The notes under the pieces: model-generated
The model's input: the letters and a program-made list of their open reading frames with translations, nothing else
What the model was told of the DNA's origin: nothing
Database searches by the model: none
Part shown: positions 16,865 through 33,896 of the stretch, in pieces
How positions within the stretch are numbered: the first letter of the stretch is position 1
How the letters are laid out: every line of letters begins with the position of its first letter
Translations under genes and position numbers: made by a program
Assembly (NCBI GenBank): GCA_017455525.1
Contig: JAFTAP010000103.1
Span: forward strand, 1 to 34,034
Reading direction: 5' to 3'
Source of the DNA: Lachnospiraceae bacterium
Lineage (GTDB): Bacteria; Bacillota; Clostridia; Lachnospirales; Lachnospiraceae
DNA: 34,034 nucleotides

Positions 16865-18277
16865 TCAGAACTGAAAATAAATAAACTGTTGAGTACCGAT
16901 ACCGGCAGAGCCTAGTATCATCAGCACAAAAATATAATACACGCACCACCTAACCGGCGTGCTCTTCGATGCAATGCGGGCTGCTGCATCCCCAGTACTT
17001 TCGTTCAGCAAATCATATAATATTAGTATAATAATCCCCGCAATAAGATACAGCATATTAAACACTCCAAGTCCCAACTCAAAGGGCGAGGTAGTAAGCA
17101 TAGATGCCGCATCAAACTGAGTAAACACTTTCCCGATTATAATCCCCGCCTTCCCGATATCCTCCGAACGGAATAAGAACATCGAAAAAGTAAAAAGCAA
17201 GAAAGTGATTATTACCTTTACCCATCTTGGGAAATGCCTGCGAAGCGGATCTATCAGCGCCTCCATTATCTGGAAAAGCCCCGAAAGCATCCCCCACAGG
17301 ATGTACGTGATATCCGCCCCATGCCACATCCCCGACAAGGTAAACACGATAAAAATATTCAGATATTTTCTAAAGGTTCCCCTGCGGTTCCCGCCGAGAG
17401 GAATATACACATAATCCCTGAACCAGTTATTAAGCGTGATATGCCAGTGCCGCCAGAACGAGGCACACGAGTCTGTAAAGAAGGGCTGAGTGAAGTTCTC
17501 CGTAAGCTTAAAGCCCAGTATCTCCGCCACGCCTATAGCGATCGTTGAATAAGAAGCGAAGTCACAGAAAATCTGAACCGAATAAAGACAGGTAGCAAGC
17601 AGCAGCTGATACCCCGTCACATCCATATAATTGTCGTATATCAGATCAACAGCTATAGCAAGCCTGGACGCCAGCACGAGCTTCAGGAAATACCCGTAAG
17701 CCATGCGGATAAGCCCGTGCCTGATTCTCTCATAATCAAAATGATGCCTCTCCTCGAACTGCGGCAAAAGATGAGACGACTTCTCTATAGGTCCCGAGAG
17801 CAGCACAGGAAAAAACGAAGCGAACGCTGCATAGGATATGAAAGACACAGGCTTCATCTTACCCTGATAAATCTCAAAAACATATGTAAGCGACTGAAAA
17901 ATATAAAAAGAAATACCCACAGGAAGTATTACCTGTAAAGCCCTGTCCTTTGCAACAAGAGATGACAGAAGCCCGGCATACTTAAAGAAGAAAAGCGTCC
18001 CGACAAGCAGCACGACGGTAAGTATCATGACCCTCTTCCTCATCCTGGTCTCATGCAGGACATACCTCATGATATACCCCGAACCATAGGATATAAGCGT
18101 CACCGCAAGAAGCAAAAGCCCGTACCTTATGTCTGCATACATATAATAAAAATAAGAAACAAGAATAAGCCACGTATTCGACGCTGCGCGTCGACTCTTA
18201 AAACCCGCTTCCAAAATAAAATATACTATAGCGACAACCGGTAAGAATATCGCAAACTCTACTGAATTAAAAAGCAT
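16865..18277 (-). CDS. MBOAT-family O-acyltransferase (AlgI/DltB/PatA-like)
   Basis: A 470-residue polytopic protein of the MBOAT family. The canonical N-terminus MLFNSVEFAIFLPVV marks the start at 18277 (the frame is open to 18400 but the extra residues are not family-like). SFWRHWHITLNNWFRDYVYIPLGGNR and the catalytic-type His in LSGMWHGADITYILWG are intact. It should carry acyl groups, often acetyl, across the membrane to an SGNH partner, here the next gene. No Shine-Dalgarno precedes the ATG; an extended -10 box lies six bases upstream, suggesting a leaderless message in addition to read-through from the fusion gene 43 bases upstream. Confidence 0.92.
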   Translation of the reverse strand: MLFNSVEFAIFLPVVAIVYFILEAGFKSRRAASNTWLILVSYFYYMYADIRYGLLLLAVTLISYGSGYIMRYVLHETRMRKRVMILTVVLLVGTLFFFKYAGLLSSLVAKDRALQVILPVGISFYIFQSLTYVFEIYQGKMKPVSFISYAAFASFFPVLLSGPIEKSSHLLPQFEERHHFDYERIRHGLIRMAYGYFLKLVLASRLAIAVDLIYDNYMDVTGYQLLLATCLYSVQIFCDFASYSTIAIGVAEILGFKLTENFTQPFFTDSCASFWRHWHITLNNWFRDYVYIPLGGNRRGTFRKYLNIFIVFTLSGMWHGADITYILWGMLSGLFQIMEALIDPLRRHFPRWVKVIITFLLFTFSMFLFRSEDIGKAGIIIGKVFTQFDAASMLTTSPFELGLGVFNMLYLIAGIIILILYDLLNESTGDAAARIASKSTPVRWCVYYIFVLMILGSAGIGTQQFIYFQF

Positions 18278-18320: not shown

Positions 18321-20867
18321 TCATTCCGTACCGGGCTCCGGAACCTCCACCCAATATGACTTTTCAAATATGTTGTCGTGTATGGAATACCACGGTTCAT
18401 CGTCTGTCGTGAACCTTATCTTATCGGCTGTGTTCGGTTCGTCAATGGTCGACCAATTATGTGATAAGGTCACGTATTGCACGCCCTGATTCTTTTCATG
18501 ACCATCAAGCTTTCCACCGGTAAAAGGATTAACCGGATCATCCACCAGATCCTTCAATGCAAGAACCGGCGTGTCGGCATTAGTCATAAAGTCGTGCGCT
18601 TCCTTAAATTCTCCATCTCCGAAATCCTTAAACATGAGAAGCGGGTTCGCCTGCTCCATATCCGTGCCATTATCAAGTATCAGTTTCGGGAAATTTCCAA
18701 GCTTATCCCCGTGATCGGCAACGATCACTATCCTTGTATTGTCATATACACCGTTCTGCTTAAGATAGTCAAACCACTCGCCCAGCATTATAAGAGCGGC
18801 GGCATTGGTATGATATTCGATGTAATCTCTTCTTTCATTTATCTCAAGCCTATTTCCTTCATCATCAATCCGGTAGCCTTTTTCCAGACCTTCATTATTG
18901 ACATGGGCGACAAGATCATAGTCCGGCAACTGAAACTCAGTCTGCTGATGTGTCATTTCATTATCCAGGATCATAAAGGTGTTACCGTCCGAATCCTTTA
19001 TTCTTGTCATCGCAGCCATATTTTTAAGGACTCCCCAGCATGTAAGGATATCCCAGTTCACCTCTCCGGGTTTCTCCGCCCGCAGGTACTCCGCATTATC
19101 ATATATATATGGCTGGAGGATCATCGGACTTACTCTGACAAGGCTGTACATAAAAAAAGATCGCCTTCTCGATGTTTCTACAGTGGCGTAGTATTCTCTC
19201 ACGCTAAAATGGCCCCTTGCATGGTAAGCTTTTATTTCAGGGTACTTGTCATATATCGAAAGATCCGGCCATGTCGTATATCCGGCATAAGGCGGATCTA
19301 TAACTGTAGACTCATATCCCTCATTCGCAAAGAGCACCGGCAGAACAGATATAGCTTCATCCTGCTTCTCCCCTAAGGTCATATCCGTCCTCGCATTCAT
19401 AGCGACCGGAGAATACTCATATCCTCCGTATAACGAAGCAGACGTGAAATTTGTATGCATACCGAAGGATACAGTATTAGGGTAATATGTAAAGCCGGAA
19501 TACTGCTGCTTCAGCTCAGGCTTTTCAGCCATCACATAAGGCACATATCCTGAGATAGCTTTATCAAGCATGATCACTATTACGTTTTTTCCCTTTGTAG
19601 AAAGATTAAAGGACGGCTCGACATCAACATCATAAAGATTGAAATCCGTTCGGGATACTATCCGGATCGTCCGTACGATATTAAAACCGGTCAGAATCAC
19701 GAGGCACGCTATGAAGGCTGTATAGATTCCGCGTATAGCAGCGGTTTTTTTCACTCTTATCAGCATAATGGCAGCAACGGTTACAGCCAGAACGCCAAGT
19801 TGAAGCAGGATCTGATTCACGGTAAATACAGGAAACTCATTATACCTAAGCTCCGATGACAGGATTCCCGTATCCCTGACGAAAAGAAAATAATCAACGA
19901 ATGTGATCCCGCAAAGCACCCATATGATAAGGCATATACGGTGCTTGGCCTTATTCGATGCAAGGGCATAAAATACTGACAGCCAGCATAGAAAGAATCC
20001 TGCTGAAACGCAAAAGGTACTGGCGACATAGGTCAACGGGTTTTTATATGCAAGCATCTCCACGAACTCCGTGGGCGAGGAAGCTACCAGAGCAGACGGA
20101 ATAGTCAACCCAATAAGGCAGGTAAGTGTAATGCCCCCCAAAAGATATTCCGCAAGTCCCGGGGCTTTATCAGATGCCTTCTCCTCCAATTTGAAGGTCC
20201 GGCCCTTAAGTACCAGGTTTTTCACAAGTGAAAAAACATTATTCATAGTCCAGTAAAGCACAAGCCCCGATGGCGATGTATAAAGCAGTATCAGAAAAAC
20301 CCCCGCCAGCACATATATCTGTATGTTCTCTTTAAGAGGAGTCCCCCATGTATATATAACTGCCGCAATACAGTTTATAAGGGTCATCAGGACCGGGAGT
20401 ATATTGATGGTCAATGCCCCTGCCTTAAGCAGTCCGTCCGGTCTTCCTAAATCCTGTATGTATAAAAAACAAGCTCCGTTCAAAAGATTCAGGTTTGAAA
20501 GGAAGTGATACGCCGCTACGAAAAACGGAATCTGAAGAATAAGAGATATAGAGCTTTTTAATGAATAAAGCGGGTGATAATCCATCTTTCTGTAATATGC
20601 TGAAAGCAGCATTACCTTTTCATCACCCTTAAAGTTTTTCCGTATATGGTCAGACCAGGACTGTATCTTCCCTTGTCTTTTCCTTTCCCCTTCCTGTATC
20701 TTATCAGCCCTTAGGTACAGAGGGAGAAGAAGAAAATTGATGACAATGCTTACTCCTATGATCGCGATTCCCGGATTGCCCGTCATTCGATTTATAAGGG
20801 TAAAGCATATTTCCAACAATAATTCTATGGGATATATGATAATATAATATATTGTCGGTAGGAGCAT
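18321..20867 (-). CDS. YidC/Oxa1-like domain fused to sulfatase-fold transferase
   Basis: An 848-residue fusion. Residues 1-225 are a YidC/Oxa1-type domain: helices at 5-25 and 32-51, a charged loop, LILQIPFFVAAYHFL, and the typical SPSGLVLYWTMNNVFSLVKN. The conserved groove Arg of insertases (TILVRLILLPL type) is Asn44 here (SIVINFLLLPL). Residues 240-400 hold about five more helices. Residues 425-800 are an outside alkaline-phosphatase-superfamily domain: VIMLDK with metal-type Asp435, HTNFTSASLYGG with Thr472 or Thr475 as candidate nucleophile, and VADHGDKLG with Asp718 and His719. A phospho-group transferase resembling LtaS or phosphoethanolamine transferases fits better than a sulfatase. 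GAGAGG precedes the ATG. Confidence 0.82.
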   Translation of the reverse strand: MLLPTIYYIIIYPIELLLEICFTLINRMTGNPGIAIIGVSIVINFLLLPLYLRADKIQEGERKRQGKIQSWSDHIRKNFKGDEKVMLLSAYYRKMDYHPLYSLKSSISLILQIPFFVAAYHFLSNLNLLNGACFLYIQDLGRPDGLLKAGALTINILPVLMTLINCIAAVIYTWGTPLKENIQIYVLAGVFLILLYTSPSGLVLYWTMNNVFSLVKNLVLKGRTFKLEEKASDKAPGLAEYLLGGITLTCLIGLTIPSALVASSPTEFVEMLAYKNPLTYVASTFCVSAGFFLCWLSVFYALASNKAKHRICLIIWVLCGITFVDYFLFVRDTGILSSELRYNEFPVFTVNQILLQLGVLAVTVAAIMLIRVKKTAAIRGIYTAFIACLVILTGFNIVRTIRIVSRTDFNLYDVDVEPSFNLSTKGKNVIVIMLDKAISGYVPYVMAEKPELKQQYSGFTYYPNTVSFGMHTNFTSASLYGGYEYSPVAMNARTDMTLGEKQDEAISVLPVLFANEGYESTVIDPPYAGYTTWPDLSIYDKYPEIKAYHARGHFSVREYYATVETSRRRSFFMYSLVRVSPMILQPYIYDNAEYLRAEKPGEVNWDILTCWGVLKNMAAMTRIKDSDGNTFMILDNEMTHQQTEFQLPDYDLVAHVNNEGLEKGYRIDDEGNRLEINERRDYIEYHTNAAALIMLGEWFDYLKQNGVYDNTRIVIVADHGDKLGNFPKLILDNGTDMEQANPLLMFKDFGDGEFKEAHDFMTNADTPVLALKDLVDDPVNPFTGGKLDGHEKNQGVQYVTLSHNWSTIDEPNTADKIRFTTDDEPWYSIHDNIFEKSYWVEVPEPGTE

Positions 20868-20976: not shown

Positions 20977-21792
20977 TTATAGCCTGAATAATTCTTTTAT
21001 ATATGTGACGCTAAGAACTTCCGATGTGCCTCCTATCCGATCCATCTTGCCATCCTTTAACGCTACGACACGGTCTGAGATATCACGTACTATGTCAAGC
21101 TCGTGCATAGACATAAGGACTGATATATGTCTGTCGTTTACAAGCTTCTTCACGGCTTCGGAGAATAAAAGCTTATGCCTTATATCAAGGAAGCTCGTCG
21201 GCTCATCAAGGATCAATAGCCTTGGCTCCTGCGCTATGGCTCTTGCAAGCATCACAAGCTGCCTCTGCCCGTCTGATATGTCGATGACATATTTATCCGA
21301 AAGACCCTCAGTCCCTGTGAGGCTCATCGCTTCCTCTATAGTCTCCCTGTCCTTGTCCTTAAGTCTTCCCAAGCCGTCAGTATAAGGGTATCTGCCCGAA
21401 GCTATCATATCGTAGCAGGTGAAGTAATCAGGTCTTATATTCCCTGTCATGACTATAGCCATGAAGCGGGCTATATCCTGTGCCGAAAGCTTCCTTATGT
21501 CACGTCCGTCAGCTTCTATGCTTCCCGATATAAGCGGTATTTCTTTTATCATAGTCTTTATAAGCGTAGATTTCCCGCTTCCGTTCTCACCGATAAGGGC
21601 GACTATCTCACCCTCTTTTATCTCAAAATTCATGCCGGAAACAACAGGCTTTCCGTTATAGCCTATGACCGCATCCATACTCTTTATTATTGGTTTTTCA
21701 TCCGTCTCTGGATGCACGGTATTTAGATTGCCAGCCACCATCGCAGTAGACAGTCTCACTGCGATATCTCTTTTTTCGCCCTCTTTATTCAT
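20977..21792 (-). CDS. BtuD/FecE-like ABC transporter ATPase
   Basis: A 271-residue ATPase of the FecCD-type importer group, with Walker A GENGSGKST, Walker B LLILDEPTSFLD and H-loop MSMHELDIV. The signature is ISDGQRQ rather than LSGGQ; LSDGE-like variants are known in iron and corrinoid ATPases, so it is probably functional. About 35 extra residues precede the ABC core. The start overlaps the permease gene by eight bases. Being last in the riboswitch-led cassette, it should energise uptake of a corrinoid or a similar metal chelate. Confidence 0.92.
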   Translation of the reverse strand: MNKEGEKRDIAVRLSTAMVAGNLNTVHPETDEKPIIKSMDAVIGYNGKPVVSGMNFEIKEGEIVALIGENGSGKSTLIKTMIKEIPLISGSIEADGRDIRKLSAQDIARFMAIVMTGNIRPDYFTCYDMIASGRYPYTDGLGRLKDKDRETIEEAMSLTGTEGLSDKYVIDISDGQRQLVMLARAIAQEPRLLILDEPTSFLDIRHKLLFSEAVKKLVNDRHISVLMSMHELDIVRDISDRVVALKDGKMDRIGGTSEVLSVTYIKELFRL

Positions 21793-22762
21793 GTGCTCGC
21801 CCAGCCCTTCCCATTAATACGACGATCACTACCGGCGCTCCGAGCACCGCTGTAACTGATGATATTGATAGCTCGGTTGGCGCAAATAAAAGCCTTGCGA
21901 GCAGATCCGAGAGCAGGCAGAATGCCGCCCCGCCAAGGAAGCATGACGGTATCATAGTCTGCGGTTTTGATGTCTTGAAAAATCTCCTCATAAGATGCGG
22001 TACGGCGACTCCAACGAATGAAATCGGACCGGCAAAAGCCGTCACCGTAGCCGAAAGCAGCGAAGATACAAGTATCAGTAAAAAACGGAACAAGGGTATA
22101 TTAACTCCTACAGACCTCGCATATTCCTCGCCTGTAAGATACGCCCCTATCGGCTTGCTTAAGATCATGCTCCCTGCCATAGCTATAAGCGTAAGCAATG
22201 CCGCAATTCCCACATTTTGCATGCTCATGCCGGAGAAGCTTCCCATCGACCAGTTATGAAGGTTCACTATATCCTGATCGTCCGCAAAGGTAATAAGAAA
22301 GTCCGTAAGCGCAGCGCATATATAGCCTATCATGACTCCCGCCAGCACCAGCACCGACATCCGTCTCGTTCTCCTTGATATCATAAGCACAGCGAATGTC
22401 ACGATACTAGCCCCTATAAAAGAAGCAATCACAAGTTCCAGCGACGACAGATGGAATCCCCCGCTCATAAGCACGATAAAAGCAAGCGCCGTCACAAGCT
22501 TCGCCCCGCTTGATATTCCCAACACGAAAGGTCCCGCTATGGGATTTGCGAAGAAGACCTGCAATAAATACCCCGACACCGATAAAGCCCCGCCGAGTAT
22601 TAATGCGGCAAGCATCCTCGGAAGCCTTATATTCATTATTATAGTGGTGTAAGAAGGATCGCCCCATGCCGCCGTGCCAAGCAGGACGCTTACGACGGCA
22701 AGCAGTAGCGTGATCATTACTAATAAAAGATATAAGGTAAAATGTCTCTTATTTATTCTCAC
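21785..22762 (-). CDS. FecCD/BtuC-family ABC permease
   Basis: A 325-residue permease with about nine to ten helices. Family landmarks are LRLPRMLAALILGGALSVSGYLLQVFFANPIAGPFVLGISSGA near the N-terminus (read here in part, residues 44-87), the LVLAGVMIGY segment, and FAGPISFVGVAVPHLMRRFF near residue 245, which holds the ATPase-coupling region. The start is GTG at 22762, 55 bases after the binding-protein gene, with weak AAGGG upstream. It overlaps the ATPase gene by eight bases. Transport of cobalamin precursors, heme or siderophore is consistent with the fold; the riboswitch favours corrinoid. Confidence 0.93.
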   Translation of the reverse strand: MRINKRHFTLYLLLVMITLLLAVVSVLLGTAAWGDPSYTTIIMNIRLPRMLAALILGGALSVSGYLLQVFFANPIAGPFVLGISSGAKLVTALAFIVLMSGGFHLSSLELVIASFIGASIVTFAVLMISRRTRRMSVLVLAGVMIGYICAALTDFLITFADDQDIVNLHNWSMGSFSGMSMQNVGIAALLTLIAMAGSMILSKPIGAYLTGEEYARSVGVNIPLFRFLLILVSSLLSATVTAFAGPISFVGVAVPHLMRRFFKTSKPQTMIPSCFLGGAAFCLLSDLLARLLFAPTELSISSVTAVLGAPVVIVVLMGRAGRAHE

Positions 22763-22817
22763 TGCCCGAACCCTTGATGCGCCACGCTTCCAGTACGAAC
22801 GTATTCACACCGAAGCC

Positions 22818-24893
22818 TCACTCTGTTTTACTGAAATATTTCATATCCGAGGCTTTATTATTTATGATGTCCGTGAGGTCTGATATCACGTCAGCAGCGG
22901 CACAGGTCGCCTGGAACATATTATCTTCAGAGGCATAAACCCTGCCCTCCTTCACCGCCCTAAACTCAGACAGAAGAGCCGTATCGGAAGTAAGGTCTTT
23001 TACCGACTCCGGGGCTCCGTAAAGGGTGCCATTATATATCAGTATGTCCGCATCCTTTACCTTCAGATAGAAATCCTCCATCGACATATCAACCGATGAG
23101 CTGGTCTTATCCTTGGATGCCTTTATATCAGAGGGCACGTACTCCCCTCCCGCCATCTCTATCATCTTTGAAATATAATCTCCGGGATTCCTTACTCCCA
23201 CGCTTCCCTTCGGGCTTATGTAAAAATAAGCGACCTTCGGGCTGTCCTTTTTAGAAGCTTCAGCACCGTCCGACTGCGTCATGGCATCTATCTTCTTGCA
23301 GCAAGAATCAAAGAATCTTATCGCCTTGCCGTACCTTCCTGTCATAAGTCCGTATATCTTTATCCATTCAACCCTGCCCCTCGGATCAGTCTCATAGCTC
23401 GTAAGATCGACAAACACAGGTATAGAAAGCTCTTCAAGCTTCTCCTTTGTCTCAGGAGAGTGATATATCATGGTATTCTCAACGGCGACATCCGCCTTGC
23501 CCGTTATAAGGCTTTCATAGTCGGGCGCATCATATTTACCGACATAGTGTATCGTATCCCTTTCCACAAGAGAGGACACCTTGCTGTCCGTCCACTTCGA
23601 CGCCTCCGCTCCTGCGAAAGCGACATTTTCAAGCCCTTCAATCTGAGTAAAAAAATCCATGCTGGATGTCGATGCAATGTAGGCATTGCTCACAGGCGTC
23701 CTTATTACAGTGACATCCTTCGGTATGTTCGTCGGAAGCTCTGTCATCTTAGGCACAAGCAGATACTTATCATTACCCACGTTTATACGATAAATATTAT
23801 TTTCATATTCATCAATAGTGAAACCCGTAGCGTAATCAGGGCGTATCTTCTCCTTAAGCTTCATGCCCTTATAGGTCGGTGCCACGCCCTCAGGGTCTGC
23901 CGCCCTTATGGTATCCGAATCAAAATACAGCGTGTATTCTATCTCATGCGGCTTGCTCATGGCAGTCGTGTCGGCAACCACGGGAAGCTTGTAATCAAAG
24001 CCCTTAACGGGTATCACGAAGGTGGACTTATCATCGACTATCTCCGCATCTATCACCATATCATCCTCGACTACCATATAATCATAGTTAGAAGAAGACC
24101 ATGTGATCATCGCATAAGAGAAGCCATCCTGTATCAGAAGAAGCGCAGGCGACTCTATGGAAGCCCTGCCTGAACCTCCATCCAGATCCACGTCTATATA
24201 GTAATTGCCGTCCTCTATTTTCAGATCCTCTGCGGTCTTATATCTTTTTTCCTTAAAAGCCTCATCAGGAAGCGAGGAACTCTCAAATAAAAGCGTCCTG
24301 TCATACCATTGCTCTTTTTTCCTGCTATACGAAGCGAAGCTTAAAGCCTTATCCAAAGCCTCTAAAGGCATAGTGTAAAGCTGATCGCCCGCATTATTAT
24401 TCGCATAGGATATATAATTTTCTTCCTTATCCTCAGCCGCTTCCTTCGCTGTCCCCGCATACATGAATAAATACGAGTCGCTCTCTATGCGAAGCGTGAC
24501 CTCCATGCTGTCTCCGCTCACAGTCAGCAGGCAGTCAGCGACCTTGAACATGGACGAGCTTGATTCCATGTCAATAAGGTAATCACCGTCATTTAGTTCA
24601 TCCGCTGTCACAGGAGTCAGACCGCTGTCATCTATAGTGTCACTTGTCGTATAATCCGAGCTGTCCGCAGCCTTGGAGTATTTATTCTCCGAAGCCGATG
24701 CGTCCTCAGAAACTGCCTTGTCATTCCCGCTTAACGCATCTTCATCTGCCTTTTCTTCCTTTGCGGTACTCTCTGCCGGTATCACATTACCGTCCACCAT
24801 ATCGGAATTCTGTCCCGTTTCTGCACCGCAGCCTGTTACAGCGAGCATTGCAGCCAGTAATAATGCTATTATATATCCCTTTTTCCCCTTCAT
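22818..24893 (-). CDS. Iron/corrinoid-type binding lipoprotein with duplicated N-terminal domain
   Basis: A 691-residue lipoprotein (lipobox to Cys22, AVTGC) with an acidic linker, two related beta-rich domains at about 95-215 and 225-345, and a C-terminal class III periplasmic-binding-protein domain (PF01497 type) from about 355. The two domains align at DGDYLIDMESSSSMF with DGNYYIDVDLDGGSG and at DRTLLFESSSL with EYTLYFDSDTI. They recall NEAT-like heme-binding modules, but a tetrapyrrole ligand is inference. The frame opens at 24926; GAGGAAACG directly before the ATG at 24893 fixes the start. It lies 37 bases after the CbiK-like gene and should deliver ligand to the FecCD permease. Confidence 0.85.
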   Translation of the reverse strand: MKGKKGYIIALLLAAMLAVTGCGAETGQNSDMVDGNVIPAESTAKEEKADEDALSGNDKAVSEDASASENKYSKAADSSDYTTSDTIDDSGLTPVTADELNDGDYLIDMESSSSMFKVADCLLTVSGDSMEVTLRIESDSYLFMYAGTAKEAAEDKEENYISYANNNAGDQLYTMPLEALDKALSFASYSRKKEQWYDRTLLFESSSLPDEAFKEKRYKTAEDLKIEDGNYYIDVDLDGGSGRASIESPALLLIQDGFSYAMITWSSSNYDYMVVEDDMVIDAEIVDDKSTFVIPVKGFDYKLPVVADTTAMSKPHEIEYTLYFDSDTIRAADPEGVAPTYKGMKLKEKIRPDYATGFTIDEYENNIYRINVGNDKYLLVPKMTELPTNIPKDVTVIRTPVSNAYIASTSSMDFFTQIEGLENVAFAGAEASKWTDSKVSSLVERDTIHYVGKYDAPDYESLITGKADVAVENTMIYHSPETKEKLEELSIPVFVDLTSYETDPRGRVEWIKIYGLMTGRYGKAIRFFDSCCKKIDAMTQSDGAEASKKDSPKVAYFYISPKGSVGVRNPGDYISKMIEMAGGEYVPSDIKASKDKTSSSVDMSMEDFYLKVKDADILIYNGTLYGAPESVKDLTSDTALLSEFRAVKEGRVYASEDNMFQATCAAADVISDLTDIINNKASDMKYFSKTE

Positions 24894-24930
24894 CGTTTCC
24901 TCACGAATAATAATTTTACACTTCAAAATA

Positions 24931-26046
24931 TCAAATGCCTTTTATAGCCTCGCCTGCTCTTGCGACATACATCTGCTGTATCTCAGGAAGCTGTCCAAGA
25001 CCTTCCAGCACGGTCACGACCTCATAGCCATCCGCTTCTAATATAGACTTCCACGAATCATCTTCCTCGCCTGCCATGTCGTTATTCGCATGATCCCCTG
25101 CAACTACCATAAGCGGGCGGAGCATTACCCTATCATACCCTTTTCCATCTATAGCCGCAATCACATCATCAAGCGAGGGCGTAGCCTCTACTGTACCTAT
25201 GTAATAATTCTCATATCCTTTTTCATCAAAGGCTTTCTGCACCTTATCATACACGGCGTTAGAATCAGCCTCAGTTCCATGCCCCATGAAGCAGACGGCG
25301 GTCTTTCCATCGTCATAAGACGCCGTAGAGTCATGCACGATACCCGCAACCTGATCTATATCATCATCTGAAATAAGCAAGGGATCTCCTATTGCTACCT
25401 TATCAAAAGCATCCGAATATGAAGCCACCTCGTCAATAAGATCGTTATACTCGAAGCCGTCCATAAGATGCGTAGGCTGTATGACAAGCTCCTTCACGCC
25501 ATTATCCACGGCACGGTCTAGAGCTTCCTTAACATTATCTATCGCCTCTCCATCTCTTTCCTTCACATGGTCTATTATTATCTGGCTCGTAAAAGCCCTC
25601 CTTACAGACCAGTCGGGATAAGCGTCCGCTATCGCCTGCTCTATGGCTCCAATCGTAAGCCTCCTGCTGTCATTATAGCTCGTGCCAAAGGACACGACGA
25701 GTATCTCCTTATCTCCTATCCCGTCCTGGTTCCTTGGATCGTCCAATCCTGCGTCCCCCGTTTCGTAGTTTTCATCATCTTCATCCGCTTCTTCCGATTC
25801 TGCGTCTGACGCCTCTTCAACATCCGCAGTATCACTATCCGCAGCCTTTGTCTCTGAAGTCTCGGCCTGCGTCTCATCAGATGCACTATCAGCAGGCTCT
25901 GCTTCCGTCTCTGCATATTGTGCATCAGCATCCTCGGAAGCCGTCTTCGCCCCCGCTGATTCTCCGCTTCCTGAAGCGCTCCCACATCCGAAAAGCATCA
26001 CTCCCGTCATTGCCGCTATAAGCAATACCACCAATTTCCTCTTCAT
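24931..26046 (-). CDS. Exported CbiK-like chelatase lipoprotein
   Basis: A 371-residue protein with a lipobox ending at Cys21 (LFGC), a very acidic Asp/Glu/Ser/Thr linker (about 37-97), and an anaerobic cobaltochelatase (CbiK, PF06180) domain from residue 111. Family landmarks are ILVVSFGTSYNDSRR, QPTHLMDGFEYNDL with His193, MGHGTEADSNAVY with His256, and LMVVAGDHANNDMAG with His319; His193 and His319 match the metal histidines of CbiK. A cytoplasmic role in B12 synthesis is excluded by the lipoprotein signal. Periplasmic CbiK proteins that bind heme are known in Desulfovibrio. AAGGAGGG lies ten bases before the ATG and is sequestered in the leader structure described below. Confidence 0.9.
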   Translation of the reverse strand: MKRKLVVLLIAAMTGVMLFGCGSASGSGESAGAKTASEDADAQYAETEAEPADSASDETQAETSETKAADSDTADVEEASDAESEEADEDDENYETGDAGLDDPRNQDGIGDKEILVVSFGTSYNDSRRLTIGAIEQAIADAYPDWSVRRAFTSQIIIDHVKERDGEAIDNVKEALDRAVDNGVKELVIQPTHLMDGFEYNDLIDEVASYSDAFDKVAIGDPLLISDDDIDQVAGIVHDSTASYDDGKTAVCFMGHGTEADSNAVYDKVQKAFDEKGYENYYIGTVEATPSLDDVIAAIDGKGYDRVMLRPLMVVAGDHANNDMAGEEDDSWKSILEADGYEVVTVLEGLGQLPEIQQMYVARAGEAIKGI

Positions 26047-27187: not shown

Positions 27188-27646
27188 TCATTCCGCAACT
27201 GTATCTATTTCTCTGTCGCTCCCACCCGTGATTTTCAAAACAACATGATTCGGAAGACAGACTATGCTCTCTCCCGCCTTGGATATCTCCCTGCTGTGCA
27301 GGCAGGTCTTATCCGGACAATCCGCATAAGTCATACGCACGCTGCCGTTTTTGATTTCGCATATATTGCCATCGCCAATATTGATAGTCCTGTCCTCGCT
27401 AAGCTCATACTCCCCATATATTTCATTCCCTATAAGTATCTCAAGCTTAGGATTTTCAGCCGCATTTTTAATATTAAATATCGAAAATAAAAAAAGTCCC
27501 AAGGCAAAGAAAATCCAGAAACAGATCAGTATCAGGTCCGCCCTCCTCCATAGCGCAATACCACTTTTTATATTATATGATTTTTCTTCACCAAAATCAT
27601 CTTCTGCAGATATCGGTTTTATATTTTCATCTAATCCCTCAGCCAT
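27188..27646 (-). CDS. NusG domain II membrane-anchored protein
   Basis: A 152-residue protein with a cytoplasmic N-terminus, one transmembrane helix at about 33-57 and an outside NusG domain II (PF07009). The family hallmark CPDKTCLHSREISKAGESI with two cysteines, followed by CLPNHVVLKITG, is complete. No NGN or KOW RNA-polymerase-binding part is present, so it is not a transcription factor. Its constant association with ApbE and Rnf genes suggests a role in assembly or electron transfer at the membrane, which is inference. It overlaps apbE by 16 bases. Confidence 0.9.
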   Translation of the reverse strand: MAEGLDENIKPISAEDDFGEEKSYNIKSGIALWRRADLILICFWIFFALGLFLFSIFNIKNAAENPKLEILIGNEIYGEYELSEDRTINIGDGNICEIKNGSVRMTYADCPDKTCLHSREISKAGESIVCLPNHVVLKITGGSDREIDTVAE

Positions 27647-28599
27647 TTTTCCTCATGGTTGTTATCAATAAAAATCACTTCCACATCCAAGGCTTCATTC
27701 TCTATCAATTCTAAAGCCCTATCCTCACCTATAAGCACACAAATAGTCGATAAGGCATCACACAGTACATCATCAGTCCCTATAACCGATACCTGCTGCA
27801 ATTTGGTCTCTACGGGATAGCCGGTACCCGGATCTAATATATGATGATACTGCTTGCCATCTGCCGTGAAATATCTCTCATATGTTCCCGATGACACTAC
27901 GCATCTATTATCTATCTGAACCGTATCAAACACAGTTCCCCGCTCCGCAAAAGGCTCCTGTATGCCGACATTCCATTCACTGCCATCTGTCTTACTGCCT
28001 ACTGCGCTCACATTTCCGCCGAGATTAATCAATGCGGAATTGCAGCCCTGCTCCAAAAGATACGCTTTAAGCTTCGCCGATATATAACCCTTCGCTATCC
28101 CACCCAGATCGATCTGCGTATCGCTGTCATCGAATATGATAGTATTTCCTTCGCAATGCACCTTTTGGTAATCAACCTTTTTCAAAGCTTCTTTTATCTC
28201 TGATTCAGATGGAACAGACGGATCCTCCGCTTCAAAATCCCAAAGCTCTCTGAGCGGCAATACAGTAATATCAAAAGCCCCCTCCGATATCTCACCATAA
28301 TAAAGCCCTGCTTTTATGCAGGAAGCAAGATTATCTGAAACCTCTACGGAATTGCTATTCCTGTGATTCAGCCGATAAAGTTCGCTTCCTTCCTTCTGTG
28401 CAGAAAAAACATTCTCCATCTCTTCGCATATATCAAAGCACTCCGCCAGCAGCTTATCAGCATCCCCATCGCAGATCCTGATATCCACGACAGTGTCAAA
28501 ATAAACCCCCGTCCCGGAAGCCTCCTTGCCTTCTGCCCCGCAGCCTGACAATAGAATTATATATAATATAAAAACTATTGGGAATAATGATGATTTCAT
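27631..28599 (-). CDS. apbE: FAD:protein FMN transferase lipoprotein
   Basis: Flavin transferase that uses FAD to attach FMN by a phosphoester to Thr in target proteins, here very probably RnfG and RnfD, on the outer side of the membrane. A lipobox ends at Cys20 (LLSGC). Motifs are FDTVVDIRI, IDLGGIAKGYISAK and HHILDPGTGYPV with the metal and FAD-binding residues. Length 322 is normal for the family. It follows rnfB after a 110-base spacer holding three hairpins and overlaps the NusG-II gene. Confidence 0.95.
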   Translation of the reverse strand: MKSSLFPIVFILYIILLSGCGAEGKEASGTGVYFDTVVDIRICDGDADKLLAECFDICEEMENVFSAQKEGSELYRLNHRNSNSVEVSDNLASCIKAGLYYGEISEGAFDITVLPLRELWDFEAEDPSVPSESEIKEALKKVDYQKVHCEGNTIIFDDSDTQIDLGGIAKGYISAKLKAYLLEQGCNSALINLGGNVSAVGSKTDGSEWNVGIQEPFAERGTVFDTVQIDNRCVVSSGTYERYFTADGKQYHHILDPGTGYPVETKLQQVSVIGTDDVLCDALSTICVLIGEDRALELIENEALDVEVIFIDNNHEEKWLRD

Positions 28600-28617
28600 T
28601 CTTTCACGCTATACGGG

Positions 28618-28718
28618 TTGAAACACATGCCAATGAAGCATGTGTTTCAATCCTACGGACAGGATTCTTTGAATCCTGCCAAATACGTATCTCGAATTTC
28701 TGATGAAATTCAAGATAC
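28618..28718 (-). repeat. Three tandem hairpins between rnfB and apbE
   Basis: Hairpin one: 687-700 with 705-718 of the 28-kb block, 14 pairs with one G-U, loop of four, and it covers the rnfB stop codon. Hairpin two: CAGGATTC (28660-28667) with GAATCCTG (28671-28678), loop of three. Hairpin three: 28618-28630 with 28638-28650, 13 perfect pairs, loop of seven. None is followed by a T run on the minus strand. They may stabilise the rnf message, mark an RNA cleavage site, or be a remnant of a palindromic repeat. Confidence 0.8.
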
Positions 28719-29501
28719 TATACACTTCCTCGGGCATTCCCTGATGCACTTGCCGCAGTTCTTGCACTTTTCGTAGTCTATGACGGGATAGCCCTTTTCT
28801 ATCGTGATAGCCTCGAAAGGACAGCCCTTCACGCATTTCTGGCAGGCTATGCAGCCTATCTTGCAGTTATCCATGACAGGCTTTCCAAAATCTGGGTTAG
28901 AGCATCCGATATGGGCTTTATAGCCGTAAGGAACCTCGGAAATAAGCCCCTTCGGACAAGCCTTCATGCACTTGCCACAGTCCACGCATTTCTCAGGGTC
29001 CACTACCGCAATCCCGTTCACTATATGTATCGCATCGTACTCGCATACCGCCACGCAGTCGCCATAGCCCATGCAGCCGTACCTACAGGACTTCGGTCCC
29101 GTACCTGGCGCGAACTTCGCCATCATACAGCTCTTCGTGCCGCTGTAGTCATAATTCTCCCTCGTCCTTTCGCAGTCGCCAAGGCAATGCACGAAAGCGA
29201 CCTTTCGTACCGCAGCGTCCGCAGAGGTTCCCATTATATCTGCTATCTTGTCAGCTACGGGCTGCTGCCCCACTACACAGGCAGAAACAGGAGCCTCGCC
29301 TTTAGCTATCGCAGCCGCAAGCGCTGCGCAGCCTGAATAACCGCAGGCTCCGCAGTTAGCACCGGGTAGCGCTTCTTTTATTTCAGCCTCCTTCTCATCC
29401 ACGGGCACGAAGAAGACCTTGCTGGCTATCCCAAGGAAAGCCCCTACGAAGATCCCTATGCCCCCTATCATGAGGGTTGCGAATAATATATCCGTAGTCA
29501 T
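28710..29501 (-). CDS. rnfB: Rnf complex subunit B (iron-sulfur protein)
   Basis: Electron-carrying subunit of the ferredoxin:NAD oxidoreductase. It has an N-terminal membrane helix (about 5-28), the Fe-S domain GANCGACGYSGC, a further cysteine block in the middle, and ferredoxin-type CxxCxxCxxxCP motifs: CVDCGKCMKACP, CIACQKCVKGCP and CKNCGKCIRECP. It takes electrons from ferredoxin and passes them to the membrane part. Length 263 is normal. It is the last rnf gene; 13 bases separate it from rnfA. Confidence 0.97.
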   Translation of the reverse strand: MTTDILFATLMIGGIGIFVGAFLGIASKVFFVPVDEKEAEIKEALPGANCGACGYSGCAALAAAIAKGEAPVSACVVGQQPVADKIADIMGTSADAAVRKVAFVHCLGDCERTRENYDYSGTKSCMMAKFAPGTGPKSCRYGCMGYGDCVAVCEYDAIHIVNGIAVVDPEKCVDCGKCMKACPKGLISEVPYGYKAHIGCSNPDFGKPVMDNCKIGCIACQKCVKGCPFEAITIEKGYPVIDYEKCKNCGKCIRECPRKCIVS

Positions 29502-29514
29502 ACGCTCCCCCTCC

Positions 29515-30087
29515 CTACTTCAGCGCTGCGAATCCGAAGAACGCTATGGACATAAGCGCCGAAGTTATCATTACTATCGGGAAGCCCTTGAAGGGCTTCG
29601 GCACGTCGTTATATACCATCTTCTCACGGATAAAGGCAAGTATCACTATCGCAAGCCAGAAGCCTATCGCCGTGGCAAAGCCGTGAACCGTGCCGGTTAA
29701 GATATCATAATCATTCTGCACGTTAAGTAATGCAACGCCAAGCACCGCACAGTTAGTCGTGATAAGGGGAAGATAAATTCCAAGCGCCTCATAAAGCGAG
29801 GGCACGAATTTCTTCGTGAACATCTCAACGAACTGCACCAAAGCCGCCACTATAAGAATAAACGCTATAGTCTTAAGATACTCCACATGAAACGGTATCA
29901 GCAAGAACTTGTAAATAACCCCGCAGACAAGACTTGAAAGCGTCAGCACGAAGGTAACCGCCATTCCCATTCCCGATGCCGAATCCGACTTCTGCGAGAC
30001 TCCGAGGAATGCGCATATCCCAAGAAACTGGCTTAATACCACATTATTTATAAGACAGGCGGTTATCGCTATCATTATTATCTCCAT
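29515..30087 (-). CDS. rnfA: Rnf complex subunit A
   Basis: A 190-residue six-helix membrane subunit, inverted-topology homologue of RnfE. It shows the family N-terminus ITACLINNVVLSQFLGICAFLG and the TNCAVLGVALLN segment with the conserved membrane cysteines that are thought to hold a cluster shared with RnfE. It starts three bases after the end of rnfE. Confidence 0.97.
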   Translation of the reverse strand: MEIIMIAITACLINNVVLSQFLGICAFLGVSQKSDSASGMGMAVTFVLTLSSLVCGVIYKFLLIPFHVEYLKTIAFILIVAALVQFVEMFTKKFVPSLYEALGIYLPLITTNCAVLGVALLNVQNDYDILTGTVHGFATAIGFWLAIVILAFIREKMVYNDVPKPFKGFPIVMITSALMSIAFFGFAALK

Positions 30088-30090
30088 GAC

Positions 30091-30906
30091 TTATACCCCC
30101 TTCACTTCTTCTTTATTAACCGTACCACCCGCAGGAGACGCATTAGAACCAGCAACAGCCGCAACCGCAGGCTTCGGCGCATTCACGGATGCCACTACAT
30201 TCTCCGTACACTCTTCCTTACCGCCGCATAGTCCAAGCTTCATGCAGTTCATGCAGTCACCGCACATATTCCCCTGAGTGGGATCTACGCCGGGTCTTCT
30301 CCCCGCTCCTATCTTAAGCCTGTTCATGATAGCGACAAGCCATCCGAGCACAAGGAACGCTCCGGGAGCCAGCACGAATATATTCACAGGCACATATGAC
30401 GCAGGCGTCACCTTCATCCCAAACCATGTGCCCGCTCCGATTATCTCCCTCACAGAGCCTAAAAGGAATAAAGCCACCGTAAAGCCAAGCCCCATTCCTA
30501 TCCCGTCGAAGAAAGCAGACACAGGCTTCATCTTGCCCGCATAAGCCTCCGCACGCCCCATTATGATGCAGTTCACGACGATAAGAGGAATATAGATGCC
30601 TAGAGACTTATAAAGCCCAGGAGTGAAGCCCTCCATCAGAAAGTCCACCATCGTAACGAATGATGCGATAACTACGATATAAGCAGGCATCCTCATCCTG
30701 TCCGGTATTATCTTGCGTAAAAGCGATATGATAAGCTCTGCAAGCGTAAGTATTATCATCGTCGAAAGCCCCATGCCAACGCCGTTTAAAGCGGAGGTCG
30801 TGGTCGCAAGAGTAGGGCACATGCCAAGGATCAAGCAGAATACGGGGTTTTCCGTATATATCCCGTTCCATATCCTCTCTATCGGCGTATCTTTCTTAAG
30901 ATTCAT
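30091..30906 (-). CDS. rnfE: Rnf complex subunit E with Cys-rich tail
   Basis: A 271-residue six-helix membrane subunit. The N-terminus MNLKKDTPIERIWNGIYTEN, NPVFCLILGMCPTLA and VVNCIIMGRAEAYA are standard. The frame opens at 30954 but GGAAGGAGG before ATG 30906 and ATGA overlap with rnfG fix the start. About 70 residues follow the last helix: five cysteines at 215, 218, 221, 227 and 233 (CGDCMNC pattern), then a low-complexity Ala/Val tail. Typical RnfE proteins are near 200-230 residues and lack this. The tail could bind metal or a cluster. Confidence 0.95.
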   Translation of the reverse strand: MNLKKDTPIERIWNGIYTENPVFCLILGMCPTLATTTSALNGVGMGLSTMIILTLAELIISLLRKIIPDRMRMPAYIVVIASFVTMVDFLMEGFTPGLYKSLGIYIPLIVVNCIIMGRAEAYAGKMKPVSAFFDGIGMGLGFTVALFLLGSVREIIGAGTWFGMKVTPASYVPVNIFVLAPGAFLVLGWLVAIMNRLKIGAGRRPGVDPTQGNMCGDCMNCMKLGLCGGKEECTENVVASVNAPKPAVAAVAGSNASPAGGTVNKEEVKGV

Positions 30907-31538
30907 TCTGCGCCTCCTTCCAGATAACGGACAGCGACCAGAGCTGCGTTGCAAGCCTTCGTGACAGCGCTTGTAGTCACGGTGCTTCCGCTTATCGCAT
31001 CTACCTCATAAGCCTCGCTCTTTCCGTTTTTCGTGTATTCTACGAAATTATCTCCCGGCGTGAGATTTATAAACTGATCCTTGAAATCAGGAAGGTCAGC
31101 CTTCATTCCCATGCCCGCAGTCTCTGAAAGCGTAAGGAAAGCGATGCTGTTGATCACAGGCTCTCCGTCCTTTGTCGAGATCCCTGTCATTATCTCTATC
31201 TCTCCGCCGTAGCCTTCCTTATTCATGGAAGTCACGACATAGCCTATCTCCGAGCCTGTCCCGTCATACGCCACATCGACAGCCTTGACAGAGGTCTTGG
31301 TAAGTCCTGCTTCTTCAATCGCAGCAATAAGACCTGCATCAGAATCTATCCCATCCATAGCCTCAAATGTCTTAGCATCAGGAAATACCGCCCTCTGCGT
31401 CTCGATTCTTGTCTTCTCCTGCTGCGCCGTGATAGGCCCTGCCGTAACCGTATGCACTATGCCTAAGAGGAAACCGGCTACTAAAGTTATGAGCGTGATT
31501 ATCAGTATGTCATGCCCTAAGGTAGTCTCTTTTTTCAT
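30903..31538 (-). CDS. rnfG: Rnf complex subunit G (FMN-binding)
   Basis: A 211-residue subunit with one N-terminal helix (about 10-33) and an outside FMN-binding domain. The flavinylation motif is SGST(186) in AISGSTVTTSAV; the usual SGAT has Ser in place of Ala, which still leaves the acceptor Thr. ApbE from the same run should attach FMN. It overlaps rnfE and rnfD by ATGA junctions. Confidence 0.95.
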   Translation of the reverse strand: MKKETTLGHDILIITLITLVAGFLLGIVHTVTAGPITAQQEKTRIETQRAVFPDAKTFEAMDGIDSDAGLIAAIEEAGLTKTSVKAVDVAYDGTGSEIGYVVTSMNKEGYGGEIEIMTGISTKDGEPVINSIAFLTLSETAGMGMKADLPDFKDQFINLTPGDNFVEYTKNGKSEAYEVDAISGSTVTTSAVTKACNAALVAVRYLEGGAE

Positions 31539-32545
31539 GCCTGCTCCTCCTTTCCCTTAGCCTTCTTCTCTTTCACGATACTGAACGCCAGAGGCTTCGT
31601 GTAGTTCTCTATGAGCGGCACGAGGCAGTTCATGAAGATTATCGCATACGACACGCCCTCGGACGATTTGCCGATAAGCCTGAATATCCAGGTGAGGATT
31701 CCGAGCATAAGAGCGTATATGTACTGTGCCTTAGGATTTATAGGGCTTGTCACGTAGTCCGTCGCCATGAACCATGCGCCGAGCACGATGCCGCCCGCGC
31801 AAAGCTCCTCAAGAGTGAATATGAACGGATCGCTATAGCCCCTTACCGCTGCCGTTATAAGAGTGAGTATGGCGAAGCTTCCAAGGTACACGGCAGGTAT
31901 CCTTATCTCTATGACCTTTATGAATACAAGGAAAAGACCGCCTATTAAAAGAAGCAGTGCCGATGTCTCACCTATAACTCCGCCTACGTTTCCAAGGAAT
32001 AAAGCCTTAAGGTCGAAATGCTCTCCAAGCTTCAAGTAGGCAAGTGGCGTAGCTCCTGACAGAGCATCGGTTGTCCCTGCCACATCCCATACCGTGGGAA
32101 TAAAACCGCCCTTTGAAGCATAGGTCGTCATCTGTCCTGAAAACGCTATAAGTAAGAAGCATCTCGCTCCAAGCGCCGGGTTCATGAAGTTCTGCCCAAG
32201 TCCGCCGTATAGCTGCTTTATAATAATGATTGCGAAAACCGCGCCCAGCACGGGTATCCACCATGCGATCTCCGGCGGCATGTTCATAGCGAGCAGAAGC
32301 CCTGTAAGACAGGCGCTTAAGTCGCTTATCGTTATCTTTTTATGCAGAAGCCTCTCATATACATACTCCGAAGCCACCGCTGCCACAGGCGTTAATATAA
32401 GAATAAGAAGCGCATGCAGACCGAAGTTTAATACGCCCATAACACAGGCGGGAAGCAATGCTATAATCACCGCAAGCATTATCTTCTGTGTCGTGATGCT
32501 GTCTCTTACATGAGGCGAGACAGAAACCTGATATCTTTCATCCAT
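31535..32545 (-). CDS. rnfD: Rnf complex subunit D (FMN-binding membrane protein)
   Basis: A 336-residue polytopic subunit. Motifs are SPHVRDSITTQKIM at the start, GGLGQNFMNPALGARCFL, and the covalent-FMN motif SGATPLAYL with Thr166. Helices cover most of residues 20-320. It forms the membrane electron path with RnfG and is linked to Na+ or H+ transport. It is separated from rnfC by 14 bases. Confidence 0.96.
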   Translation of the reverse strand: MDERYQVSVSPHVRDSITTQKIMLAVIIALLPACVMGVLNFGLHALLILILTPVAAVASEYVYERLLHKKITISDLSACLTGLLLAMNMPPEIAWWIPVLGAVFAIIIIKQLYGGLGQNFMNPALGARCFLLIAFSGQMTTYASKGGFIPTVWDVAGTTDALSGATPLAYLKLGEHFDLKALFLGNVGGVIGETSALLLLIGGLFLVFIKVIEIRIPAVYLGSFAILTLITAAVRGYSDPFIFTLEELCAGGIVLGAWFMATDYVTSPINPKAQYIYALMLGILTWIFRLIGKSSEGVSYAIIFMNCLVPLIENYTKPLAFSIVKEKKAKGKEEQA

Positions 32546-32559
32546 GTCTTATCCCTCCT

Positions 32560-33876
32560 CTACTTCCTCTTGCTCGCCATAAGCGTTCGGCGCATAGCCT
32601 TTATATTCGCCGCGAGCGGTCTCTTAGCGGGACACGAGAAGCTGCACGAGCCGCACTCCACGCACTCTAGTCCGTACGCCTTATCAAAGCCCTCCATGTC
32701 CTTATGCTCCGCAAGGTCGCACAGCTTATATGGCTCAAGGCGGGCAGGACAACCCCTTACGCAGCGTCCGCACTTGATACAGGGCGACTCCTCCTGCTTC
32801 GATACCGTATCCTCAAGGAAGCAGGTTATCGCGCCCGATGTCTTGGTTACGGGTATATTTAAGTCATACAGGGCAAAGCCCATCATGGGACCGCCGGAGA
32901 TAAGCTTCTCAGGCTTCTCCTTGAAGCCCCCTGCGTCATCTATTATTTCCTGATATGACATCCCTACCGGAACCTCGTAATTCCTTGGATTAGCTATCGC
33001 GTCACCTGATATGGTGAATATCCTGCTGATTAACGGCCTTCCTAAAATCACAGCGTCATGCACGGCTATGACGGTATCTATATTATCGACGACGCAGCCT
33101 GCATCGGCGGGAAGCATCTTTGAATTTACCTTCCTCCCTGTTATCGCATCTATAAGGCAGCGCTCAGCCCCCTCCGGGTACTTCGTCTTCATGGTCGCTA
33201 CACTCATGCGCTGATGTCCCTGCACCGCCCTTTCCATTACAGCTATGGCTTCGGGCTTATTATCCTCTATGCATATGACTCCCTCAGCATTGTCAAATAG
33301 CTTCAGGATACATTCAAGACCGGCTACTATCTCATCGGGATGCTCTATCATGCAGCGATAGTCAGACGTAAGATAAGGCTCGCACTCCGCTCCGTTCACG
33401 AGCACGTACTCGATCTTATCAGGCTCTTTCGGAGACAGCTTCACATGTGTCGGGAAGCCCGCTCCACCCATGCCCACGACCCCTGCCGTTTTTATTCTCT
33501 CTATGATGTCCTCTTTTGAAAGGGATTCAAGCGAAGCCTTCTCCGCATCGGGCACAGCCTCATACAGATCGTCATTTTCGACTATGACCGCATCCACCAT
33601 GTCGCCTACGGCGTTCCTTCTCTTCTCGACCTTAGTTACCGTGCCTGATACCGAAGAATGAACCGGTGCGGACACGAAGCCTCCAGCCTCCGCTATCTGC
33701 TGCCCGACAAGCACGCGGTCGCCCTTTTTGACGGTCGCCTTAGCCGGAGCCCCGATATGCTGCGACATAAGGAACACAAGCTCCTTGCCCGGCGTCAGCT
33801 TCACGATAGGCATGTCCTTCGAGAACTTCTTGCCGTCAAAAGGATGCACTCCCCCCTTGAAGGTATACAGTGCCAT
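32560..33876 (-). CDS. rnfC: Rnf complex subunit C (NADH-binding)
   Basis: A 438-residue peripheral subunit that oxidises NADH or reduces NAD, related to complex I NuoF. The N-terminus is MALYTFKGGVHPFDGKK; GMGGAGFPTHVKL is the nucleotide-binding glycine stretch; two 4Fe-4S motifs CIKCGRCVRGCP and CVECGSCSFSCP lie near the C-terminus. The frame runs to 33981, into the terminal repeat, but GGAGGAGG before ATG 33876 fixes the start. It is the first gene of rnfCDGEAB. Its promoter is not in the window, or lies within the repeat 20 bases upstream. Confidence 0.97.
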   Translation of the reverse strand: MALYTFKGGVHPFDGKKFSKDMPIVKLTPGKELVFLMSQHIGAPAKATVKKGDRVLVGQQIAEAGGFVSAPVHSSVSGTVTKVEKRRNAVGDMVDAVIVENDDLYEAVPDAEKASLESLSKEDIIERIKTAGVVGMGGAGFPTHVKLSPKEPDKIEYVLVNGAECEPYLTSDYRCMIEHPDEIVAGLECILKLFDNAEGVICIEDNKPEAIAVMERAVQGHQRMSVATMKTKYPEGAERCLIDAITGRKVNSKMLPADAGCVVDNIDTVIAVHDAVILGRPLISRIFTISGDAIANPRNYEVPVGMSYQEIIDDAGGFKEKPEKLISGGPMMGFALYDLNIPVTKTSGAITCFLEDTVSKQEESPCIKCGRCVRGCPARLEPYKLCDLAEHKDMEGFDKAYGLECVECGSCSFSCPAKRPLAANIKAMRRTLMASKRK

Positions 33877-33896
33877 CTCTAACCTCCTCCATACAT

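Follow-up and report, generated by a model that had tools for sequence, protein, structure and literature searches.

A clostridial fusion of a YidC-like module with an alkaline-phosphatase-superfamily ectodomain, its PF04464 partner and a possible role in the transfer of phosphonate or phosphate tails

The window analysed here is a whole stretch of 34,034 nucleotides from a Lachnospiraceae bacterium (contig JAFTAP010000103.1 of assembly GCA_017455525.1). It encodes a protein of 848 amino acids (aa) that joins a YidC/Oxa1-like membrane module to an ectodomain of the alkaline phosphatase (AP) superfamily, referred to as YidC-AP. Relatives of this fusion, carried by clostridial gut bacteria, are usually encoded next to a protein of family PF04464, referred to as c0, and a second fusion joins a YidC module to the PF04464 enzyme instead. 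The YidC, PF04464 and AP parts very probably act in one pathway, and this pathway probably transfers phospho- or phosphono-tails. That the three parts make up one machine that transfers tails to glycans of the cell surface, with the window protein as its outer half, has about an even chance of being correct.

The open reading frame (ORF) of the fusion runs uninterrupted from its ATG, and two Pfam models match the protein above their cut-offs, PF02096 at residues 33-220 (79.8 bits, cut-off 35) and PF00884 at residues 694-729 (28.7 bits, cut-off 25). A preliminary description of this DNA had proposed these two models and had seen in the single protein an insertase-like N-terminal domain, extra helices and an alkaline-phosphatase-superfamily domain with VIMLDK and ADHG motifs. 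Its outline agrees with our analysis, and the motifs lie at residues 431-436 and 717-720, respectively. Using phmmer, residues 9-220 could be aligned with YidC2 (3wo7, E 3.4e-10) and residues 23-222 with other YidC chains, e.g. 5mg3; solved YidCs are thus alignable over most of the module, which is predicted to be insertase-like. The score on the NCBIfam model TIGR03592 is 83.5 bits, just below the cut-off of 84.3. With a Kyte-Doolittle cut-off of 1.5 there are five hydrophobic segments within residues 1-222 and five more, the extra helices, at ≈238-398. A marginal segment at 429-447 (1.51) holds D435 and was interpreted as one of the ectodomain's core strands. It is lost at a cut-off of 1.6 together with the third YidC segment, leaving four segments in the YidC module. 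The C-terminus of YidC lies inside the cell, and after five further helices the ectodomain would therefore be placed outside.

The same architecture is found in relatives with 87% (G021), 80% (G020) and 77% identity (G007, cut by the contig end), and a survey of 391 genomes, sampled evenly across the class Clostridia and of the kind that the preliminary description had suggested, showed the full fusion in 12 of them. An assembly, sequencing or frame artefact, a doubt raised in that description, is thereby ruled out. Altogether 39 of the 391 genomes gave a match, which in 27 cases was only to YidC-like or AP-like proteins. Among 99 relatives (including G000, the genome of the window) the window protein matched 45 at E ≤ 0.001, several of them multi-copy, the weakest of these matches being stand-alone YidCs or other sulfatase-like proteins. 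In a set of 299 genomes of the phylum no fusion or c0 was seen outside the class, and the fusion was seen only in G000 and G210, both class members; two further matches of alignment A2 in this set are frames of 237 and 277 aa.

At least 516 stretches of GTDB contigs encode a relative, YidC-only relatives included. The 78 loci that were kept are labelled mostly as Lachnospiraceae, Ruminococcaceae, Clostridia/Clostridiales and Saccharofermentans, and come chiefly from metagenome-assembled genomes (MAGs). Some of the matches listed carry the labels Treponema, Actinomycetes and Solobacterium MAGs. Cultures of some carriers probably exist, since the records of Butyrivibrio sp. INlla21, Lachnospiraceae XBD2001 and Ruminococcaceae AB4001 and YRB3002 are not marked as MAGs. 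Frame calling yielded no fusion ORF for two of the 78 loci (L090 and L115), and these were excluded from the counts. In all, 123 fusion ORFs of at least 400 aa were called in 96 loci, which are partly redundant since some contigs entered twice (e.g. L041 and L058). Two or more fusions of at least 600 aa are present in 20 of 95 loci. The locus L102:3-15038 (+) has as many as five fusion ORFs, one of them cut by the contig end, with a single c0 among them. The window copy is one of four in G000, and the other three are on contig C57.

Comparison of the 902 genes within six genes of the fusions in the 96 loci showed one dominant neighbour, c0, with 67 proteins in 64 loci, 61 of them at distance one. 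Sixty of the 67 c0 genes adjoin the fusion on the same strand, with a median gap of 1 nt when longest-frame starts are used. The score of the c0 representative (L079:8706-9977) on PF04464, the model for CDP-glycerol:poly(glycerophosphate) glycerophosphotransferase, is 39.7 bits, and the other members were assigned by homology to it. All 22 aligned c0 proteins have YIDPGTG near the N-terminus, and an N-terminal hydrophobic segment passes a Kyte-Doolittle cut-off of 1.6 in one of two proteins checked; from its sequence c0 is a probable membrane-anchored protein. In the 391 class genomes, c0 matches above 500 bits are found in 11 of the 12 fusion genomes vs. none of the 379 others (Fisher 1.7e-20, kinship uncorrected). 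Weaker matches of 185-201 bits (G234, G298, G331, G424) are the second type of fusion, and G182 has a 97-bit c0 fragment. The preliminary description missed this partner because the window copy has none next door.

The second fusion, YidC-PF04464 (631-802 aa), was found in the same genus and elsewhere. Both Pfam domains exceed their cut-offs in seven proteins (from L167, L168, L169, L175, L176, L177 and L178), while L174 and the cut L173 were assigned by our own profiles; examples are L167:11582-13486 (-), L175:11048-13180 (-) and L177:7444-9342 (+). The PF04464 half is a near-full homolog of c0 that covers model positions 52-418 without the c0 N-terminus, whose place is thus taken by YidC. 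Five of the nine stretches (L167, L168, L175, L176 and L178) also encode an AP-type protein without YidC, referred to as AP-only. The two genes overlap by 4 nt in L175 and have 68 nt between them in L176, and in L167 they are on opposite strands. The AP-only proteins of L167, L175 and L176 reach the Pfam Sulfatase cut-off; those of L168 and L178 miss it and rest on our own ectodomain profile. L173 and L174 are short stretches that could hardly show an AP-only protein. Two complementary joinings of YidC thus exist, one with the inside and one with the outside enzyme, and they are the strongest reason to regard the three as one machine. One YidC-PF04464 protein was scored on TIGR03592 and passed the cut-off with 101.1 bits, so automatic annotation may name these proteins YidC insertase. 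Neither fusion is named in the open-licence literature searched, which is no proof of absence in print.

Phosphonate genes accompany four of the nine YidC-PF04464 stretches (L167, L168, L177 and L169), the one in L169 being a distant PepM relative (35%). The phosphonate operon L177:7444-13647 (+) lacks a PhnW match and includes an iron-containing alcohol dehydrogenase, so that its tail may be hydroxyethylphosphonate. For YidC-AP, the fullest example is a same-strand run on contig C57 of G000 with the genes for a fusion (63% identical to that of the window), PhnW/AepZ, a nucleoside triphosphate (NTP) transferase, Ppd, c0 and PepM. PhnW (TIGR03301, 434 bits), Ppd (TIGR03297, 458 bits) and PepM (TIGR02320, 407 bits) all exceed the NCBIfam cut-offs, and the PepM has an N-terminal cytidylyltransferase-like domain. 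Homologs of the genes in this run were found in 10 (PepM), 10 (Ppd), 6 (PhnW) and 17 (NTP transferase) of the 96 loci, and a choline-kinase/NTP-transferase (LicA/LicC-like) relative in 16. At least one phosphonate, choline-kinase or NTP-transferase gene is near the fusion in 35 of the 96 loci. PepM exceeds its cut-off in 32 of the 391 class genomes, distributed as 10 of the 12 fusion genomes vs. 22 of the 379 others (p 1.9e-10, kinship uncorrected). Judging from gene content, the tails with the best support are aminoethylphosphonate and phosphocholine, for that minority of the loci in which such genes lie near the fusion.

The wider context is mixed. Of the 262 neighbors of 180-700 aa that lie no more than three genes from a fusion in loci L055-L132, leaving aside c0 and the fusions themselves, 100 were sampled. 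Among these there were eight NTP transferases, five family-2 glycosyltransferases, three choline kinases, three proteins of sugar-nucleotide epimerase/dehydratase families and two BCCT transporters, and the tally amounts to 125 families in all. A membrane protein of mostly 700-800 aa, c6 (e.g. L036:6961-9345 (-) and L035:1029-3299 (-)), is near the fusions in 6 of the 96 loci, and the c6 proteins scanned had no match in Pfam or NCBIfam. CotH kinase proteins adjoin the C57 fusions of G000 (L036:17459-19219, L035:6966-8834 and L035:11647-13509).

In the mechanism we propose, tails (P-X) would be CMP-activated in the cytosol, 2-aminoethylphosphonate by PepM, Ppd, PhnW and the NTP transferase or, alternatively, phosphocholine by choline kinase and cytidylyltransferase, as the gene content of part of the loci suggests. 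The PF04464 enzyme would load P-X from CMP-X onto a membrane lipid, and the YidC module would pass the lipid head group via its polar groove to the outer leaflet, by analogy with the action of Oxa1-family insertases on phospholipids in vitro. The ectodomain, with its presumed Thr nucleophile and one metal site, would then take P-X from the lipid and put it on a glycan. What we infer here are the two acceptors, a lipid for c0 and a glycan for the ectodomain, and the flipping. Lipid flipping by the YidC module is conceivable, at slightly less than an even chance. A little more tentative is the full proposal, in which the module has been co-opted to serve solely as a flippase of phosphonate or phosphate tails borne on lipids and is covalently joined to either the cytosolic loader or the outer transferase, a route undescribed in the literature searched. 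The preliminary description had suggested an envelope-decorating membrane machine with MBOAT and SGNH partners. Such a machine, with a YidC-like part that may handle a lipid-borne substrate as that description also suggested, gains support from the PF04464 partner, the reciprocal fusion, the invariant residues and the tail genes that some loci have; MBOAT and SGNH as its defining neighbors do not. The lipid passage itself is conjectural.

The ectodomain residues D435, T472, H640, D718 and H719 are invariant in all 64 fusions compared, and the same five are kept in all 11 AP-only relatives. Formylglycine sulfatases need Cys or Ser as nucleophile, and since the nucleophile column is Thr in 64/64 fusions, the ectodomain does not belong to them. 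From its sequence it reads as a Thr-nucleophile phosphotransferase rather than a sulfatase. The order acidic ligand, Thr, Asp-His is that of the MCR-1 site, described with Glu246, Asp465 and His466 as zinc ligands and Thr285 as nucleophile (PMC8593676). A combined profile of fusions and AP-only proteins aligns with E. coli EptA (hhalign probability 91%, E 9.7e-7). A residue-level match to LtaS and OpgB was dropped, as the hhalign alignments with the LtaS-like L163 protein of G000 and with OpgB do not cover the nucleophile. Profile searches against the PDB cover the YidC half and the region around the DHG motif, and an AP-only protein gave weak sulfatase matches.

The likeness to MCR-1 and EptA would also suit an ordinary EptA/LtaS-type enzyme that draws phosphoethanolamine or glycerol phosphate from the bulk phospholipid present in the outer leaflet, with c0 separately placing P-X on a lipid-linked glycan inside and YidC in another role. 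TarF and TarL act on lipid-linked sugars, and c0 weakly resembles them (at most 20.2 bits for three c0 proteins on these teichoic acid models). That no tail-making genes are seen in most loci also fits. Such an arrangement leaves unexplained both the usual c0 adjacency and the fusion of YidC to either enzyme, and we consider it unlikely.

In the proposed tail-transfer machine the YidC module is the passage. Mean pairwise identity, calculated from 400 random pairs among the 64 fusions, is highest in this module (0.576), lower in the ectodomain (0.456) and lowest in the linker helices (0.321), and the module is therefore likely to be more than a mere anchor. The polar residues S40, N44, T162, N165, N209 and S213 are fixed in at least 61 of the 64 fusions. 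The N44 column (N in 61, S in 2, Q in 1) is that of the positively charged groove residue in the first core helix (R366 in E. coli). It holds Lys or Arg in four aligned YidC-PF04464 proteins and Tyr in 19/19 stand-alone YidCs of the same genus (listed for 19 genomes, L134-L152). Loss of the groove Arg was thus rejected as proof of a non-insertase, and the column is uninformative on function since stand-alone YidCs of the genus also lack the Arg. In a tree of YidC modules, AP fusions (39 rows, the window twice), PF04464 fusions (9) and stand-alone YidCs (19) form three separate groups; being unrooted and having long branches, it cannot tell whether both fusions derive from one captured module. 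All four PF02096 matches in G000 are fusions. The idea that this genome has no stand-alone YidC was rejected. The RNase P protein gene is usually near yidC, and since it was also not found and the assembly is 93% complete, a stand-alone yidC is probably in the missing sequence. Lipid scrambling in liposomes has been reported for purified E. coli YidC and for other members of the Oxa1 family (PMC10491306).

The clear homology to insertases also allows for a private insertase or chaperone of the fused enzymes, or a plain anchor, with no movement of lipid or substrate. YidC does help membrane enzymes to fold. A plain anchor fits poorly with the high conservation, and there are AP-only relatives without YidC, four of which were checked and have hydrophobic segments of their own. 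We regard this explanation as improbable, to about the same degree as the EptA/LtaS-type enzyme.

Several observations weigh against the tail-transfer machine. The window copy has no adjoining c0, the c0 of this genome being on contig C57, and the 80% ortholog in G020 sits among DegV, YkuD and SUF housekeeping genes; fusion copies of this kind must use c0 elsewhere or do something else. G337 has a fusion without c0, and the fusion genomes G255 and G356 have no PepM. No phosphonate, choline-kinase or NTP-transferase relative was seen in 61 of the 96 loci (some stretches are short), and no AP-only protein in the L169 and L177 stretches. The 17 kb of L170 contain c0 and three AP-only proteins but nothing that matches YidC, which this locus may therefore be able to do without. 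The survey scored two candidates per class genome, and the co-occurrence figures ignore kinship, with 8 of the 12 fusion genomes belonging to one genus. Finally, the residue match with EptA is not settled, as T472 falls on T282, two residues from T280, and D435 is placed just ahead of E244, off by one residue.

The features of the window protein and of the two genes after it are given in Table 1. The first of these is an MBOAT gene, as the preliminary description had stated (PF03062, 116.6 bits; 152.9 bits on the DltB model, below its cut-off of 375). Its longest frame starts at 18400, and Met42 was judged the likelier start. The SGNH label of the second comes from the SGNH signature motifs GDSR and DSIH, read by eye; there is no Pfam match over the cut-off (DUF1574, 16.3 bits). 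Among the loci searched by tblastn at E 1e-5, and apart from the stretches of the window itself, the MBOAT homolog was found in six (L170, L108, L036, L051, L062 and L098) and the SGNH homolog in none. No MBOAT match was present in the 1.4 kb after the 87% ortholog in G021 (L006). The pair had been given as the defining neighbors of the fusion, and this association is not conserved: among the loci searched MBOAT is found in six others, SGNH in none, and neither in the stretches of the G020 and G021 orthologs, so MBOAT-SGNH was rejected as machine core. An acylating machine built around the two, with the fusion as a helper, would draw on their same-strand position in the window and on the six other MBOAT loci, and it is very improbable with no homolog of either in the remaining loci searched, the G020 and G021 stretches included. 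Least credible is an ectodomain that acts by removal, as a true sulfatase or phosphatase; the name of the best Pfam model, Sulfatase, speaks for this reading and the invariant Thr against it.

Table 1. Features of the YidC-AP gene and the genes that follow it, in positions of the window.
Feature	Position	Strand	Basis
YidC-AP fusion gene, 848 aa	18321..20867	-	ORF, Pfam matches, relatives
YidC/Oxa1 module, residues 1-222	20202..20867	-	PF02096 match 33-220
N44, column of groove Arg in aligned solved YidCs	20736..20738	-	alignments
Linker membrane block, residues ~238-400, five hydrophobic segments	19668..20156	-	Kyte-Doolittle
Alkaline-phosphatase-superfamily ectodomain, residues 420-848	18324..19610	-	PF00884, profiles
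D435, presumed metal ligand	19563..19565	-	kept in 64/64 fusions, 11/11 AP-only proteins
T472, presumed nucleophile	19452..19454	-	kept in 64/64 fusions, 11/11 AP-only proteins
H640, candidate active-site histidine	18948..18950	-	kept in 64/64 fusions, 11/11 AP-only proteins
D718-H719, presumed metal ligands (ADHG)	18711..18716	-	kept in 64/64 fusions, 11/11 AP-only proteins
MBOAT gene, same direction, downstream of fusion	16865..18277	-	PF03062, 116.6 bits
SGNH-like protein, 325 aa	15873..16850	-	motifs by eye

Elsewhere in the window there is a YfhO-family membrane protein (2919-5789 (-), PF09586, 181.7 bits), of a family used in lipid-carrier glycosylation. An iron/corrinoid-type ABC transporter (ATPase, permease and 702-aa binding protein) is encoded with a CbiK cobalt chelatase at 20977-26046 (-), and the stretch 27631-33981 (-) holds genes for Rnf electron transport and for an ApbE flavin transferase.

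The fusion shares a homologous membrane core with the YidC/Oxa1/Alb3 insertases, with PF02096 over the cut-off, and differs from them by its phosphotransferase ectodomain and a TIGR03592 score just under the cut-off; its YidC modules also form a clade apart from the stand-alone YidCs of the genus in the unrooted tree. As a caution, proteins scoring as YidC need not be insertases. Lipid scrambling by insertases has been shown in vitro (PMC10491306), and a process in the cell with a specific use for it is hard to name. Here the YidC module is fused to enzymes of both faces of apparently one pathway, with tight gene neighbors and few residues to test. If the proposed route is true, it would show lipid passage by an Oxa1-family module put to a specific use in nature.

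With EptA/MCR and LtaS/OpgB the fusion has in common an AP-superfamily ectodomain after membrane helices and the order acidic ligand, Thr, Asp-His, while the extra YidC module and the PF04464 partner gene set it apart. TagF, TarF and TarL belong to PF04464, which is matched by the c0 representative and by the second half of YidC-PF04464; c0 differs from them in its low scores on the teichoic acid models and in the CMP-phosphonate and CDP-choline genes near it in part of the loci. The Lic/Pnt tailoring systems (LicABCD, PepM-PntC) resemble part of the loci in the genes that make and activate phosphocholine or aminoethylphosphonate. LicD-like phosphotransferases or glycosyltransferases are named as their late machinery in a 2019 study (PMC6697681), and YidC-AP and PF04464 would replace them here. 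The single LicD (PF04991) match in G000, the one genome tested, is on contig C72 and not on C57 or C58. In the same study, what follows the formation of the C-P bond in tailoring is described as enigmatic, and one such step is then solved, namely activation by nucleotidyltransferases (PMC6697681). Our proposal bears on how activated phosphonate or phosphocholine tails reach acceptors beyond the membrane. Three-part membrane tailoring systems are known in CsbB-GtcA-YfhO glycosylation, Dlt and PatA-PatB, which likewise have an inside loader, a membrane passage and an outside transferase; in the present case the role of passage would fall to a YidC module with a covalent link to one enzyme or the other.

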